Origin: Gammaproteobacteria bacterium 45_16_T64
GTDB taxonomy: Bacteria > Pseudomonadota > Gammaproteobacteria > Pseudomonadales > Ketobacteraceae
Assembly (NCBI GenBank): GCA_002162955.1
Contig: MABD01000050.1
Span: 1 to 36,464 of the forward strand
Reading direction: 5' to 3'
DNA: 36,464 bases
The notes beneath the pieces were generated by a model, which saw only the letters and a program-made list of their open reading frames with translations, made no database searches and was not told the origin of the DNA. The stretch's first letter is position 1, and every line of letters starts with the position of its first letter. Shown here piece after piece: positions 4,773-27,483 of this stretch. The position numbers and the translations under genes were made by a program.

Positions 4773-6665
4773 ATGACCTTACGTGAAAGAGCTAGTTGTG
4801 TGAATTGTAGGCCCCTGGTTGTGAGAGACTCCTGGAGTCTGGTGTATCATTTACTTCTTTTTTGCTGCCTATTCAGTGCTTCCTCCGTGGGAGCCGCGCC
4901 GGTTCATCAAGTTTCTATATCGACGGATATCAATCGACACGATATTAATCCGTCCTTGGTGTTTTTTGAAGACACGAAGGGTCAGTTATCTTTTTCTGAT
5001 GTTTACCAGGACAGACGTAGCATACCTTGGTTGCGTGTTCCCAATGGTATGCCAAGCTTTGGATTTTCAACATCTACCTATTGGATATACGCTAGTTTGG
5101 ATATTGATTCGACTGATACTCAGTGGTATCTCAACGTAGATAACTCCCAGTTGCGTAAATTGGATGTGTATTTGATTGAAAGCTCGGGGAAAACAAAAGT
5201 ATTTCAGACAGGTGATCGGTTTGAATTCTCAGGACGGCCTTTGCAGTACCGAACGTTCTTATTTCCATTGGACGTGAGTAAGAGAGGGGCGCTGGATGTG
5301 TTAGTGAGAATAGAAAGTCCCTATCCGCTTAGGGCACCATTGTTTATCGTTGAAAAAGATCGCTTTCTTCAAGACGCAGTGCAAACTGAATTGGCATATG
5401 GCGTGCTTTTTGGTTTTCTTGTCGTAATGGCAATCTATAATTTTTTCATCTTTTTAGCGACTCAAGAAGTGAGCTATCTTTTTTACGTCTTCTTTACTAT
5501 TTCGAGTGCGTTGTTTTTGGGAGCTGAATTGGGGTTTACATTCCAGTATTTGTGGCCTTCGGCGATATCTTGGCAGCAACATTCTGTTGGTGTGCTTGCG
5601 TGTCTTACAATGCTGTTTTCGGGGCTGTTTGTGTTGGAGTTTTTACAGTTGCGAGTTCATCACCGGATATTGCATTTTTTATTATGGGTATTTGTAATCT
5701 ATAGTATTGTTATGCTTTTTGTCGGCTTTATGTTGACGCCTTTTTACTTGCAGCAAATCAATTCGGCGGTGGTGTTGCTAGTCGGAGTGCTAGTACCTGT
5801 TGCAAGTGTGATTGTTTGGCGTAAAGGGCAAAAAGAGGCCGGTTATCTTGCGGTAGCAGGAGTGTTATACGTAATGGGCATCATGATAATGATTGCCCAC
5901 CGGCAAGGTTTGATACCCAGTGTGGCAGTGTCACGCTATACCTTAGAAATTGGCTCTGCATTAGAATTGACGCTGCTGTCTTTTGCGTTGGCGGACAAAT
6001 TGAAGCGTAAGAATAGTCAGCGCCTGATACTAGATCAACAAGCTCGAGATGTTAGAAGTCGAGTGCTAGTGGAGCAGGAGTTTGCGTTAGAAAGAGAGCG
6101 CGTAAGTAACGAACGGCTGGAGAAAAATGTCAAAGTGCGCACCGAGCGTTTGCATCAAGCACTTGCCGAGTTGACGGCGGTAAACCACAAGCTCGAAGAA
6201 ATGAGTACGATCGATTCTATTACTGGGTTGAAAAATCAAACCAGTTTTTTTGAACGTTTAAAAGAAGAGTGGGAGCGTGCATACCGAGATCAGACCCCGG
6301 TAGCGTTGTTGCTGGTATCAATTGATCGGTATGATTCGATTGGCGATTGTTACGGTCATGTGGCAGCAGAGGAATCGTTAAAAGTCGTCGGTCAAATGCT
6401 TCGTGCTTTAATAACGCGACCCGCCGATGTCGTGGCTCGAGTAGAGATCGCTATGTTTGGTGCTGTATTACCGAATACAGAGAAAGAAGGAATAGAGCAC
6501 TTGGCATTGGAGATAGAAACCAAGCTTAAGTCAGAGCCGATTAACCTTGGTGTGTGTTGTATTTCTGTTTCTGTGGGGTGTGGCGCTGCCGTAATGGTGC
6601 CGCAAGAGGTTGGTGACTCTGAATTATTACTTGATGCAGCGAGAGTTCAGCTGGGCTTCGGTTGA
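4773..6665 (+). CDS. 7TMR-DISM membrane sensor with degenerate GGDEF domain
   Basis: A 630-residue inner-membrane sensor. A signal peptide at about 22-42 (LVYHLLLFCCLFSASSVGA) leads to a periplasmic beta-rich domain of the 7TMR-DISM extracellular type 2 (about 48-190, with GFSTSTYWIYASLDI). About seven membrane helices follow (205-410), then a coiled coil (415-475) and a GGDEF-like domain (480-630). That domain keeps the entry motif TIDSITGLKNQTSFFERL and the allosteric I-site RPAD (549-552), but the GGDEF signature itself is EIAMF (558-562). Diguanylate cyclase activity is therefore unlikely. It may instead bind c-di-GMP through the I-site. No strong ribosome-binding site precedes the ATG; it was chosen because it gives a complete signal peptide. 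The 3' end overlaps the convergent rhombosortase gene by 19 bases. Confidence 0.8.
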   Translation: MTLRERASCVNCRPLVVRDSWSLVYHLLLFCCLFSASSVGAAPVHQVSISTDINRHDINPSLVFFEDTKGQLSFSDVYQDRRSIPWLRVPNGMPSFGFSTSTYWIYASLDIDSTDTQWYLNVDNSQLRKLDVYLIESSGKTKVFQTGDRFEFSGRPLQYRTFLFPLDVSKRGALDVLVRIESPYPLRAPLFIVEKDRFLQDAVQTELAYGVLFGFLVVMAIYNFFIFLATQEVSYLFYVFFTISSALFLGAELGFTFQYLWPSAISWQQHSVGVLACLTMLFSGLFVLEFLQLRVHHRILHFLLWVFVIYSIVMLFVGFMLTPFYLQQINSAVVLLVGVLVPVASVIVWRKGQKEAGYLAVAGVLYVMGIMIMIAHRQGLIPSVAVSRYTLEIGSALELTLLSFALADKLKRKNSQRLILDQQARDVRSRVLVEQEFALERERVSNERLEKNVKVRTERLHQALAELTAVNHKLEEMSTIDSITGLKNQTSFFERLKEEWERAYRDQTPVALLLVSIDRYDSIGDCYGHVAAEESLKVVGQMLRALITRPADVVARVEIAMFGAVLPNTEKEGIEHLALEIETKLKSEPINLGVCCISVSVGCGAAVMVPQEVGDSELLLDAARVQLGFG

Positions 6666-22475: not shown

Positions 22476-22514
22476 CGGCTTGGCTTTGGTGTAAAAATAG
22501 CCATGTATTTTCTT

Positions 22515-22546
22515 AAAAAACCGCGTTCTTAAAACGCGGTTTTTTA
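22515..22546 (+). terminator. Intrinsic terminator of the queA-secF cluster
   Basis: CCGCGTT and AACGCGG form a perfect stem around a five-base loop, with six A before it and six T after it. It closes the secF transcript and isolates the chemoreceptor gene that follows. Confidence 0.93.
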
Positions 22547-22739: not shown

Positions 22740-22799
22740 ATGAAAATATGTATGCCCGTCACCAAGAGAGATGGTAAGCGAGGAAGTCACAATGAATAA
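22740..22799 (+). CDS. Possible 19-residue leader peptide overlapping the chemoreceptor start
   Basis: An ATG with GGAGAGGA six bases upstream opens a frame encoding [19 protein letters not shown]. Its TAA (22797-22799) falls inside the third codon of the chemoreceptor, five bases after that gene's ATG. The geometry would allow translational coupling, with ribosomes ending here and restarting at the receptor. It is very short, and may simply be chance. Confidence 0.3.
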
Positions 22800-25700
22800 G
22801 ATTGAAAACTTGCAGTTGAAATGGAAATTAGTGCTGGGGTTTTCGATCCCATTGGTATTGATTGTGATGATGTCCAGTGTCGTGTATTGGGATCTGGGGA
22901 AATTGCTAAAGTCCACTGGTTGGGTCAACCATACGTATGAAGCCATTGATACAGGCAAAGGTATTACAGGCTCGTTGGTGAATATGGAAACCGGATTGCG
23001 CGGTTTCTTAGTGACGGGAGGTAATGAATTTCTTGAGCCCTATAACCAGGGGGGGATTGATTTCAAAACGCTTATGTCCAAAGCGAAAAAGAAAGTATCC
23101 GACAACCCAGGGCAAGTAGAGCGTCTAACGTCTGTTGAAGTGATGGAGGCCCAGTGGCAAAGCGAGCACGTTAAGCCTGCGTTGCAAATGCGAAGGGATG
23201 TAAGCGCCAACGACCGTTCGATGAAGGACGTCATTGAGTTTATTGAGCGTGGTATTGGCAAGAAGTACATGGATTCCATGCGAGGCATTTTGGACGAATT
23301 TGTCGCTGAAGAAACTGCACTTATTGCCGTGCGTAACCAAGAGCAGCAAGATATTGCCTCAACTACCACTCAGGTAACGATCTTTGGCGCACTGCTCGCG
23401 TTGGTTGTTGGTGGTGCAGTGACCTTTCTATTAACGCGCAGCATACTCGCACAACTGGGCGATGATCCTATTGCCCTTAAAAACATTGCGGATCGCATTG
23501 CATCGGGAGATGTGGAGTTCGACCTTAGTAGTGCGACTAGTGTTGGCGTACTAAAATCCATGGCGCAAATGCGAGAAAACTTAGCGGCGCGCAAAGTCAC
23601 CGATAATGAAGCGATGGCCATAAAGAACGCGTTAGAAGTCTGTAAGACTAGCGTGATGATGGCGGATAAAGATTACAACATTATGTATATGAATACCGCT
23701 GTGACAGAGATGATGAGTGGTGTGGAGTCAGCGGTGAAAGAAGCATTACCCAACTTTAATGCGTCCACTCTTATGGGCACCAATATAGATGTGTTTCATA
23801 AGAACCCGTCTCATCAGCGTAATATGCTGGATAATTTAACCGGTACCTATACCACCGAAATAGAAGTGGGTGAACTCACCATCGAGATTACCGCAACTCC
23901 GGTAAATGACGCTGACGGTAACCGTATTAATACCGTGGTGGAGTGGAAGGATCTCACCGCTATACTAGCCAAGGAGCGTGAAGATACTCGTATCGCTAAC
24001 GAGGCAATGGCCATTAAGAATGCGTTGGAAGTGTGTAAGACCAGCGTGATGATGGCGGATGCAGATTACAATATCATGTATATGAACGGCGCGGTGGTGG
24101 ATATGATGTCTGGCATTGAATCCGCGGTGAAAGAGGTGCTACCCAACTTTAATGCCAAGACGTTAATGGGCACTAATATTGATGTGTTCCATAACGATCC
24201 GTCCTATCAGCGTAATATGCTGGATAAGTTAACGGGCACTTACACCACCGAGATTGCGGTGGGTGCATTAACCATCGAAATTGTTGCTACGCCGGTGTTT
24301 GATGCTGATGGCAATCGACTCAACACAGTGGTGGAATGGAAAGATCTCACCGCGATGTTGGCGAAACAGAATGAAGAAATTCGCATTGCCAATGAATCCA
24401 TGGCAATCAAGAACGCGCTGGAAGTATGTAAGACCAGCGTGATGATGGCGGACAAAGATTACAACATCATGTATATGAACGGCGCGGTGGTGGATATGAT
24501 GTCTGACATCGAATCTGCTGTGAAAGAGGTGCTGCCCAACTTTAATGCCAAGGCGTTAATGGGTACCAATATTGATTTGTTCCATAAAGACCCATCCTAT
24601 CAACGTAATATGTTAGATAAATTAACGGGCACATACACCACTGAAATTGCAGTAGGTAAATTAACCATTGAGATTGTTGCCACACCAGTGTTTGATGCTG
24701 ATGGTAATCGACTTAACACCGTAGTGGAATGGAAAGATCTCACGGCGATGTTAGCGAAACAGACTGAAGAAACTCGCATTGCCAATGAATCTATGGCCAT
24801 TAAGAACGCGTTGGAAGTGTGTAAGACCAGCGTAATGATGGCGGATAAAGATTACAACATCATGTACATGAATAGTGCGGTAACGGAGATGATGTCCGAT
24901 ATCGAGTCCGGCGTAAGAGAGGTGCTGCCAAAGTTTGATGCGAAGACCTTGATGGGTACGAATATTGATGTGTTCCATAAAGACCCATCTCATCAGCGTC
25001 GCATGCTGGATGGTTTAACCGGTACTTATACGACAGAAATTGCGGTGGGAGCACTAACCATAGAGATTACCGCGACACCGGTATTTGACGTTGACGGCAA
25101 TCGATTGAATACGGTGGTGGAATGGAAAGATCTCACTGCGATGTTGGCGAAGCAAAATGAAGAAACCCGCATTGCCAATGAAAGCATGGCGATTAAGAAC
25201 GCGCTGGAGGTGTGTAAGACCAGCGTGATGATGGCGGATAAAGATTACAACATCATGTATATGAACGGTGCGGTGACGGAGATGATGTCCGACATAGAGT
25301 CCGCAGTGAAAGAGGTGCTGCCGAACTTTAATTCCAGTACCTTAATGGGCACGAATATTGATGTGTTCCACAAAGACCCATCGCATCAGCGAGGCATGCT
25401 CAATAAGTTAACCGGCACTTATACCACAGAGATTGTTGTTGGTGCGCTAACCATTGAGATCACGGCAACGCCAGTATTTGATGCCGAGGGTAATCGGTTG
25501 AATACCGTGGTAGAGTGGAAAGACCTTACGGAGATATTGGCCAAGCAGCAGGAAGAAACCCGTATCGCCAATGAAGCCATGGCCATCCAGAACGCCTTGG
25601 AGGTGTGTCAGACCAGCGTGATGATGTCCGACAAAGACTACAACATCATGTATATGAACCAAGCGGTAAAAGACATGATGAGTGATGCGGAGCGAGATAT

Positions 25701-27483
25701 TCGCACCTCGCTGCCGCAATTTGATGCTCGCACCTTAATGGGAACCAATATTGATATCTTCCATAAAGATCCATCCCATCAGCGCCGCATGCTGGATGGG
25801 CTCAAGGATACTTACAGCACCAATATCCAGGTGGGGTTGCGCACCATGAAGGTGACAGCAACGCCGGTATTCTCGGAAGATGGAGAGCGCTTGAATACTG
25901 TGGTGGAATGGCAGGATTTAACCCAGCAATTGGCAAAAGAAGCCGAGGACTTGCGCTTATCTAACGAGAATTCTCGTATCAAGCAAGCGTTGGATAATGT
26001 TACCGCTAATGTCATGGTGGCCGATAAGGATCTCAGGATCATTTATATGAATGATGCGGTTATCGGCATGATGCGTAATGCTGAGGCCGATATTCGTACT
26101 GATCTGCCGCAGTTCTCAGTGGATGGTTTGGATGGGGCTAATATTGATATCTTCCATAAAAACCCCGCGCATCAGCGCGGCTTGTTAGAAAATCAACGGG
26201 CAACGTTAAACTCTGAATTCCTATTGGGCGGGCGTACATTACAGGTTATTGCCAATACTATTCGGGATGATAGCGGTGAGCGCTTAGGCACCGTGGTGGA
26301 ATGGTCTGATCGCACTGAAGAGGTGGCGATTCAGAAAGAAATCGATAACTTGGTGGCTAGCGCCAGCGCAGGTGACTTGTCGGCCCGAGTGGATGAGGGC
26401 AATAAGTCTGGCTTCTTTAAGAATGTCAGTACCGGGTTGAATAACTTGGTTGGTGTATGTGAAGAGGTAATAACGGATCTTGGTCGCGTGCTTGGAGCTA
26501 TGGCGGGCGGTGATCTTACCCTGCAAATGACGGGAGATTATGAAGGTGATTTTGCGGCCTTAAAGGACAATACGAATCAGACTATTGATCAACTCACCAG
26601 TATTATCGGTGAGATTAACGAGGCATCAACACAGGTGCTTAGCGGCTCAGAAGAGATAGCCGCCGGTAACACGGATCTGAGTCAGCGCACGGAGGAGCAA
26701 GCGTCGTCACTGGAAGAAACCGCTGCTAGTATGGAGCAGATGACCAGTTCGGTGAAACAAAGTACTGATAATGTGCGCCAGGCAAATGGTTTGGCGACGG
26801 AGACCCAAGCGAAAGCAGAGGAGGGTGGAGCAGTTGTATCCAAAGCGGTTGATGCGATGGATAAGATCAGAGACAGTAGTAAGAAAATCTCGGATATTAT
26901 CGGGGTTATCGATGAGATTGCTTTCCAAACGAACTTGCTCGCACTGAACGCGGCGGTGGAAGCGGCGAGAGCCGGTGAACAGGGTCGAGGCTTTGCAGTG
27001 GTGGCAGGCGAGGTGCGTAACTTGGCGCAACGTTCGGCGGCAGCGGCAAAAGATATCAAGGATTTGATCAATGACAGTGTGGCGAAAGTGGAGGACGGTA
27101 CGCAGCTGGTGGGCAAATCAGGTGATACGTTAGCTGACATTGTAAAATCTGTACAGGAAGTGGGTACGTTGATTGCTGACGTTGCCTCTAGTGCAGAGGA
27201 GCAAAGCTCCGGTATTGACCAGGTCAACCAGGCTGTGTCCCAAATGGACGAAATGACCCAGCAAAATGCCGCATTGGTGGAAGAAGCAAGCGCTGCCAGT
27301 GAGGCAATGTCTAGCCAAGCGAAACAGTTGGGCGAGTTGGTGTCCTTCTTTACCACTGACGGAACTGGGGGAGGTACTCCAGCCCTTGGTGGCGGAGGTG
27401 CAGTCCATAGGCCTGCACCAGTGAGAGCCTCGGGAGGTGGTGGTAGCAGGGGTCACGACTCATCCGAGTGGGAGGAGTTCTAG
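22792..27483 (+). CDS. Giant methyl-accepting chemotaxis protein with seven haem-PAS-like repeats
   Basis: A 1563-residue transmembrane chemoreceptor. Order: helix 1 (11-33), CHASE3-like periplasmic domain (about 40-190, with [12 protein letters not shown]), helix 2 (193-216), HAMP (217-270), seven PAS domains of exactly 131 residues (272-1188), two HAMP-like units (about 1189-1280), and the MCP signalling domain (about 1290-1515). Its hairpin tip is [21 protein letters not shown] and nearby residues (1375-1411). A Gly-rich linker then leads to the CheR/CheB tether EWEEF (1559-1563). Each PAS carries FH and VVEW with His and Trp 49 residues apart, the spacing of the haem ligand and oxygen-stabilising Trp of Aer2. 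This suggests a multi-haem gas sensor (inference). I start at 22792 because AGGAAG lies seven bases upstream; an in-frame ATG at 22771 lacks a good site. No che genes lie nearby. Confidence 0.93.
23605..26355 (+). repeat. Seven tandem 393-bp repeats encoding PAS domains
   Basis: Copies begin at 23605, 23998, 24391, 24784, 25177, 25570 and 25963, each with an Asn codon, and all are exactly 393 bases long. Copies 1-5 are very alike in protein; copy 6 is more diverged and copy 7 most. Many differences between copies 2-5 are synonymous. The array is entirely inside the chemoreceptor gene. Confidence 0.97.

Follow-up and report, generated by a model that had tools for sequence, protein, structure and literature searches.

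Why should a chemoreceptor carry seven copies of one sensory domain in a row, and how did it come to have them? The question is raised by a gene on contig MABD01000050.1 of Gammaproteobacteria bacterium 45_16_T64 (assembly GCA_002162955.1; the whole stretch analysed, 36,464 nucleotides, is called the window below), whose product has seven consecutive PAS units resembling the haem-binding PAS domain of the oxygen receptor Aer2. The same question applies to long runs of near-identical PAS domains in sensory proteins in general. The array in the window offers a cofactor that can be checked, copies that can be removed, and natural relatives with one, two, three, four and five copies. The type of receptor is already known, and it is the length of the array and its mode of growth that are unusual. 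What is new here is the distinction between a conserved PAS next to HAMP, the putative output unit, and an upstream array that has expanded repeatedly, together with the finding that neither the repeat period nor a conserved Trp is diagnostic.

The array (23605-26355) consists of seven ungapped units of exactly 131 residues, or 393 bp, each. The first-pass annotation of this DNA had described seven such repeats without insertion or deletion, and the alignment of the units confirmed it. All seven units have the His of an FHxxP motif (residues 336, 467, 598, 729, 860, 991 and 1122) and, 49 positions past it, the Trp of a VVEW motif (residues 385 through 1171), at the positions given in that annotation; the linker length is unchanged across all seven. 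Units 1 to 5 are 83-93% identical to one another in amino acids and 76-88% in nucleotides. Unit 6 shares 66-71% of its amino acids with these five, and unit 7 shares 40-47% with the rest. Tandem Repeats Finder reported a 393-bp array with a score of 2365, and the array is therefore not due to chance; the program counted 5.2 to 5.9 copies, fewer than seven, because units 6 and 7 have diverged. A chance or low-complexity repeat was rejected based on this array and the unit identities. An assembly artefact is unlikely, as the units differ by at least 12% in DNA and genomes of the same genus carry such a gene at the same place. At residue 70, where five units have the second His of FHxxPxHQ, units 2 and 3 (23998-24783) have Tyr.

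Units 4 and 7 were the two queried singly against the PDB sequences (E 0.01), and each retrieved three chains, 3VOL and 4HI4 of Pseudomonas aeruginosa Aer2 and 6CEQ of Vibrio cholerae Aer2. The His and Trp of both units align ungapped with those of 3VOL and 4HI4 with the 49-residue spacing kept, which bears out the equal spacing given for P. aeruginosa Aer2 in the first-pass annotation. The full-length protein also matched solved Aer2 structures. In 6CEQ the His aligns and the Trp column is occupied by Leu. According to the accessible part of PMC10468136, the Aer2 His on E-alpha (E-eta) is the primary determinant of haem binding and is found in more than 200 (73%) of the sequences in the cluster that contains Aer2. 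A structure of unit 4 was predicted from 80 aligned natural units, with a mean predicted local distance difference test score (pLDDT) of 93.8; these units were chosen for having the His, so its invariance in that alignment is not independent evidence. The comparison of a predicted repeat with the Aer2 PAS-haem structure, which the first-pass annotation had suggested, came out in its favour for unit 4: the top three PDB matches of the model are all Aer2 PAS-haem entries (E 1.9e-15, 6.9e-14 and 8.2e-11), and the next is DosP (E 3.8e-7). The ligand His of the model stands directly after a short helix (residues 61-64), and by sequence alignment it is of the E-eta type. A model of PAS6-PAS7-HAMP (pLDDT 88.9, predicted template modelling score 0.56) again has 4HI4 and 3VOL as its best structure matches, and in it a single continuous helix, residues 118-142, runs from PAS6 into PAS7. 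A Pfam scan of single units 1 to 5 gave no match at E 0.001, and the Pfam PAS models are taken as weak here. The sequences thus support the repeats as Aer2-type PAS-haem domains, as does the predicted fold for unit 4 and units 6-7. We strongly infer, rather than report as a result, that the units bind haem, and from the sequence seven haems per monomer would be plausible.

What the His and the Trp mean was judged across the family. Loci were taken from the best 80 of 590 confirmed genome-contig matches and from searches of relatives' genomes (38 relatives, 390 genomes of the order, 369 of the class, 398 of the phylum and 394 of a second order; these sets overlap, and each contributed its 12 to 30 best loci), resulting in 456 PAS units in 155 distinct reading frames. 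The ligand column holds His in 431 units, another residue in 23 and a gap in two, whereas the Trp is present in 456 of 456, including all 25 units without the His. Because it is kept in His-less units and is Leu in the haem-binding 6CEQ, the Trp is a feature of the group and not a marker of haem, and its earlier use as a pointer to haem was rejected. The His is missing throughout in eight reading frames, among them the two other receptors of this genome that match unit 4 (L111 and L112) and a one-PAS receptor of the same genus (L105). As the His can be lost in the family, its presence in seven of seven units in the window is meaningful. Among receptors that have the His in one or more units, a set that leaves out the eight His-less frames, and with units made non-redundant at 80% identity, it is conserved in 98% of upstream units (n=169) and 100% of last units (n=79). 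All seven units in the window also keep most of the near-invariant columns of the family.

Several His-less receptors have features of their own. L111 and L112, on contigs C19 and C28 of the same genome, are methyl-accepting chemotaxis proteins (MCPs) of about 1300 residues with two His-less PAS each by profile and six HAMP_2 stretches each by Pfam, forming long poly-HAMP chains. Four loci of Pseudoalteromonas luteoviolacea (L070, L071, L074 and L079) have three PAS with the ligand His in none, possibly a change of ligand. L105 (G004:C172) is a second receptor of the type, with three CHASE3 domains and a single PAS that lacks the ligand His.

How exceptional is a count of seven? Copies with both His and Trp number none in 8 of the 155 reading frames, one in 5, two in 42, three in 73, four in 14, five in 12 and seven in 1; some frames are truncated at the end of a contig or locus, and in one (L034), with at least four copies, the units are interrupted by a run of N. 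The comparison of repeat number in relatives, also suggested earlier, thus gave seven as the highest count among the frames examined; five is the next, and the window alone exceeds it. The statement that known receptors have one to a few PAS units holds for characterised Aer2 receptors, which have one, two or three PAS-haem units in the accessible text of PMC13401364, but not for uncharacterised relatives, in which four or five units are not rare (26/155). The record applies to the Aer2 type among those examined and not to PAS arrays at large; up to 19 PAS domains are given for one kinase in the part of PMC10468136 available. A literature search, part of which returned mostly unrelated text, listed no publication that describes an Aer2 receptor with a PAS number above three. 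The invariant 393-bp period is true of the window, but it is not peculiar to it: across the family, 124 of 245 His-His spacings are 131 residues, more than any other length, and the notion that the exact period is special to this gene was rejected. Also, 134 of the 245 spacings are 5 mod 7; this heptad phase is not taken as evidence, as the sequences are related.

The history of the array was read from a tree of 58 units from 15 hand-chosen loci (17 were named, two of which had no usable row). PAS7 of the window belongs to a single clade (support 100/99) that unites the 14 last units of the tree, those of other receptors included, and PAS6 groups with penultimate-type units of its own genus (99/91). 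Units 1 to 5 belong to a 14-row clade from the same genus (99/97), within which units 2 and 3 are sisters (99/88). The upstream units of Exilibacterium, Shewanella benthica, Bermanella, Algicola and G062 cluster mainly within their own receptor, so expansion occurred more than once, though several of the forks behind this reading are open or unstarred. Best matches in other receptors follow the same division: last units pair with last units in 112 of 114 cases, and upstream units with upstream units in 217 of 231 (345 usable units, 115 frames). These results indicate that the PAS adjoining HAMP is one orthologous domain across receptors and that the upstream units multiplied separately in several lineages. 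The closest pair of units in the window has a synonymous distance of 0.71; the other pairs are at 1.05 or more, up to saturation, distances above 1 being rough. The ratio of nonsynonymous to synonymous change (dN/dS, by simple Nei-Gojobori counts) among units 1 to 5 is 0.05-0.07 in the 8 of 10 pairs that were computable. The copies are therefore old and under strong constraint, and none has lost the ligand His.

Receptors of the same genus vary in both sensory modules. G001 (L101) has two CHASE3 domains and five PAS, as does G002, where a contig end cuts the gene, and NORP69 (L005) has three CHASE3 and five PAS; of the second genes in the genus, that at L007 has two PAS, and that at L105 (in G004) has a single His-less PAS together with three CHASE3. 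The CHASE3 number in the genus is thus one in the window and two or three in L101, L005 and L105. Since CHASE3 and PAS numbers both vary, the sensory modules on either side of the membrane, periplasmic (as predicted) and cytoplasmic, are expandable. The tree assigns two units of L005, 2 and 4, to the penultimate type, suggesting that a block of two units was duplicated.

What, then, would seven units do? We consider it probable, at roughly 60%, that the gene encodes an Aer2-type chemoreceptor for oxygen (gas), anchored in the membrane by a CHASE3 module, in which a conserved output PAS is tuned by an expandable upstream haem-PAS array. Each PAS would bind one b-type haem through the FHxxP His, giving seven per chain and fourteen per dimer, and continuous helices would link the units, stacked in line, in a parallel dimer. 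Oxygen binding would alter each PAS; PAS7 would act as the output unit, relaying the signal by way of HAMP to the MCP domain and on to CheA, and PAS1-6 would bias PAS7 and so set its threshold, gain or working range. Copy number, changed by in-frame duplication, would then serve as an evolutionary knob. In Vibrio vulnificus Aer2, the accessible text of the review PMC13401364 describes three haem PAS domains with similar oxygen affinity and unequal signalling roles, PAS3 transmitting and PAS2 regulating PAS3. These roles fit the phylogeny, in which the unit next to HAMP is held as an orthologue and those upstream are free to multiply. The similar affinities also bear, by analogy, on the cooperative or graded detection that had been proposed for the window, which is a guess. 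In F7 arrays, the distance from the baseplate to the PAS layers is 24.5 +/- 1.4 and 30.1 +/- 2.3 nm (PMC7184735, in part), and extrapolation at 5.6 nm per PAS would put PAS1 near 58 nm, which makes an array shared with ordinary receptors seem unlikely. An in-line array thus predicts an unusually tall receptor array, visible to cryo-tomography, and the split between output PAS and upstream array makes it possible to test directly whether sensitivity is tuned by the number of copies. In its most specific form, with the oxygen threshold and range set by the number of units upstream of one conserved output PAS, through in-frame duplication and in a separate array of about 60 nm, the proposal is doubtful.

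A number of points weigh against the proposed receptor. The roles of the upstream units are borrowed by analogy from a three-PAS receptor by way of the accessible part of a review whose wording on PAS1 is ambiguous. The Tyr that replaces the second His in units 2 and 3 may mean a different haem pocket, a different affinity or poor binding in these two. The Trp gives no support for haem, and the 98% conservation of the His is that of receptors selected for having at least one. The structure models are haem-free and were judged by their scores, helices and PDB matches. Finally, no che gene was recognised near the receptor gene, so that the usual, though not strictly defining, location in an F7 che cluster is not found.

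The same data can be read otherwise. The chief effect of the upstream PAS units may be added length, which would put the receptor in a very tall array separate from ordinary ones, the haem being structural or irrelevant; the 5.6 nm per PAS of the F7 layers (PMC7184735, in part) and the linker length kept in all seven units agree with this, but a spacer needs no haem ligand, and the His is nonetheless kept in every unit here and in nearly all non-redundant upstream units of His-bearing receptors, which makes a mere spacer unlikely. Near-neutral drift, with units gained and lost by recombination and extra ones binding haem but changing little, would account for the variation within the genus in CHASE3 number and in copies (seven here, five in three receptors, two and one in second genes). 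It has a low probability in our view, given old duplicates under strong purifying selection and repeated upstream expansion in separate lineages. PAS1 of V. vulnificus Aer2 reportedly matters little. The review PMC13401364, however, calls it 'largely indispensable'.

The reading could also fail at the level of the ligand. Some units might be haem-free PAS domains for another ligand, as the change at the second His in units 2 and 3 and the His-less units of other receptors would allow; with the ligand His and most near-invariant columns kept in all seven, we regard this as quite improbable. Seven possible haems per chain might likewise serve as a store of haem or oxygen, or sense haem supply, instead of oxygen for taxis. 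Such a buffer is very improbable for a protein with a complete MCP output ending in EWEEF and with characterised relatives of one to three units that are oxygen sensors (PMC13401364, in part). Of these readings, the tuned oxygen receptor is preferred.

P. aeruginosa Aer2 (McpB/TlpG; 3VOL, 4HI4) resembles the receptor in its FHKNPxHQ His, the Trp at +49, the ungapped alignment with units 4 and 7, HAMP after PAS, the MCP domain and a C-terminal pentapeptide tether (PMC7184735, in part). However, it has one PAS between HAMP1-3 and HAMP4-5, according to the accessible text of PMC13401364, in contrast with seven here, and in the part of PMC7184735 available it is without a transmembrane region and belongs to an F7 che cluster, whereas the receptor in the window has CHASE3, two transmembrane-like segments and no che genes nearby. 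The Aer2 proteins of V. vulnificus (tri-PAS-haem) and V. cholerae (dual; 6CEQ) share tandem PAS-haem units upstream of HAMP and MCP but have three and two units, respectively, and the accessible sources describe no CHASE3 module for either. Leptospira interrogans Aer2, set beside the window by its description in part of PMC13401364, is likewise membrane-bound with N-terminal PAS domains, but these are three, and its response in E. coli is of opposite sign. Uncharacterised five-PAS relatives (Exilibacterium L002, S. benthica L001, Algicola L003, Vibrio amylolyticus L041, and L101 and L005 of the same genus) share the PAS-haem units, the MCP domain and the pentapeptide; they differ in having five units, which in the relatives included in the tree arose by largely separate expansion, and L101 and L005 have two and three CHASE3 domains.

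The receptor is encoded by one intact gene, an uninterrupted forward-strand frame (22771-27483) without internal stop. Of the two candidate starts, ATG 22792 (1563 residues) is favoured over ATG 22771 (1570 residues) because of a GAGGAAG upstream, a Met at the same place in frames of the same genus and its fit to the residue numbering of the first-pass annotation. A pseudogene was dismissed in view of the intact frame and the strong purifying selection. The domain order is transmembrane-CHASE3-transmembrane, seven PAS units, HAMP, MCP domain and a C-terminal EWEEF (Table 1).

Table 1. Coordinates of the receptor gene, its parts and the hairpin before it, in positions of the window
Feature	Coordinates	Strand	Basis or remark
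Terminator-like hairpin between secF and receptor gene	22514..22546	+	Consensus scan, not evidence of function
Chemoreceptor gene	22792..27483	+	Open reading frame; NCBIfam NF041847 aerotaxis transducer Aer2
First transmembrane segment	22822..22893	+	Hydrophobic stretch, by eye
CHASE3 domain, predicted periplasmic	22915..23343	+	Pfam PF05227, E 2e-32
Second transmembrane segment	23374..23436	+	Hydrophobic stretch
HAMP-like linker past membrane	23437..23604	+	By eye, inferred; no Pfam HAMP match here
PAS-haem unit 1	23605..23997	+	His codon 23797-23799
PAS-haem unit 2	23998..24390	+	Tyr for second His of FHxxPxHQ
PAS-haem unit 3	24391..24783	+	Tyr for second His; sister of unit 2
PAS-haem unit 4	24784..25176	+	Modelled, pLDDT 93.8; best PDB matches 4HI4, 3VOL, 6CEQ
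PAS-haem unit 5	25177..25569	+	Repeat alignment
PAS-haem unit 6, penultimate type	25570..25962	+	Repeat alignment, tree
PAS-haem unit 7, adjoins HAMP	25963..26355	+	Groups with last PAS of other receptors
HAMP domain	26407..26595	+	Pfam PF18947 (HAMP_2)
MCP signalling domain	26791..27258	+	Pfam; ungapped with Tsr
C-terminal pentapeptide EWEEF	27466..27480	+	Read from open reading frame

The protein exceeds the 1200-bit cut-off of NCBIfam NF041847 (aerotaxis transducer Aer2, Vibrio) with 1459.3 bits, a score that is summed over five stretches of a repeated protein and is therefore inflated. Full-protein Pfam matches to Herpesvir_UL11, Glyco_transf_18, SDE2 and similar families were dismissed as inflated by the repeats. 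A hydrophobicity scan gave two transmembrane-like segments ahead of the first PAS, and the C-terminal EWEEF is a pentapeptide of the CheR-tether type, in agreement with the membrane receptor and WEEF-type tether annotated earlier. It fits the motif x-[HFYW]-x2-[HFYW], which is present in 137 of 147 His-bearing frames, a set with some members truncated at the end of a contig or locus, and in 96/130 in the accessible part of PMC7184735. Between the last PAS and the MCP domain, a second HAMP probably follows the one matched by HAMP_2, as judged from the alignment with the PAS-HAMP structure 3VOL (1067-1277) and the helices of the model. Tsr (6S1K) aligns ungapped over 288 residues (1242-1529), which places the receptor in heptad class 36H, the class to which we take Tsr to belong. 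FNR/ANR-like boxes number 33 in the window as compared with 22.7 expected, a count reached by 3 of 100 shuffles; as an upstream element such a box was not used, the one weak match (22858) lying inside the gene.

By recognised sequence, the receptor gene sits between secD-secF and suhB-trmJ-cysE-iscR, and the hairpin after secF suggests that it is a separate transcription unit. A gene of the same kind lies between secF and suhB in G001 and G004, its halves are found on two contigs flanked by secF and suhB in G003, and secF precedes the five-PAS gene in G002. At L007 (G002:C324), the end of a similar receptor gene is followed by a two-PAS-haem receptor gene on the same strand, for which no CHASE3 match is shown, and then by suhB. 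The genome has 21 MCP, 7 CheR and 14 CheW-domain matches, those of CheR and CheW being on other contigs. A cheY-A-W-R-D-B set, recognised by eye and by CheR and CheW matches, stands beside flagellar genes on contig C30, in an order that we take to be reminiscent of the che2 cluster of P. aeruginosa. Elsewhere in the window, positions 4773-6665 encode a 7TMR-DISM diguanylate cyclase.

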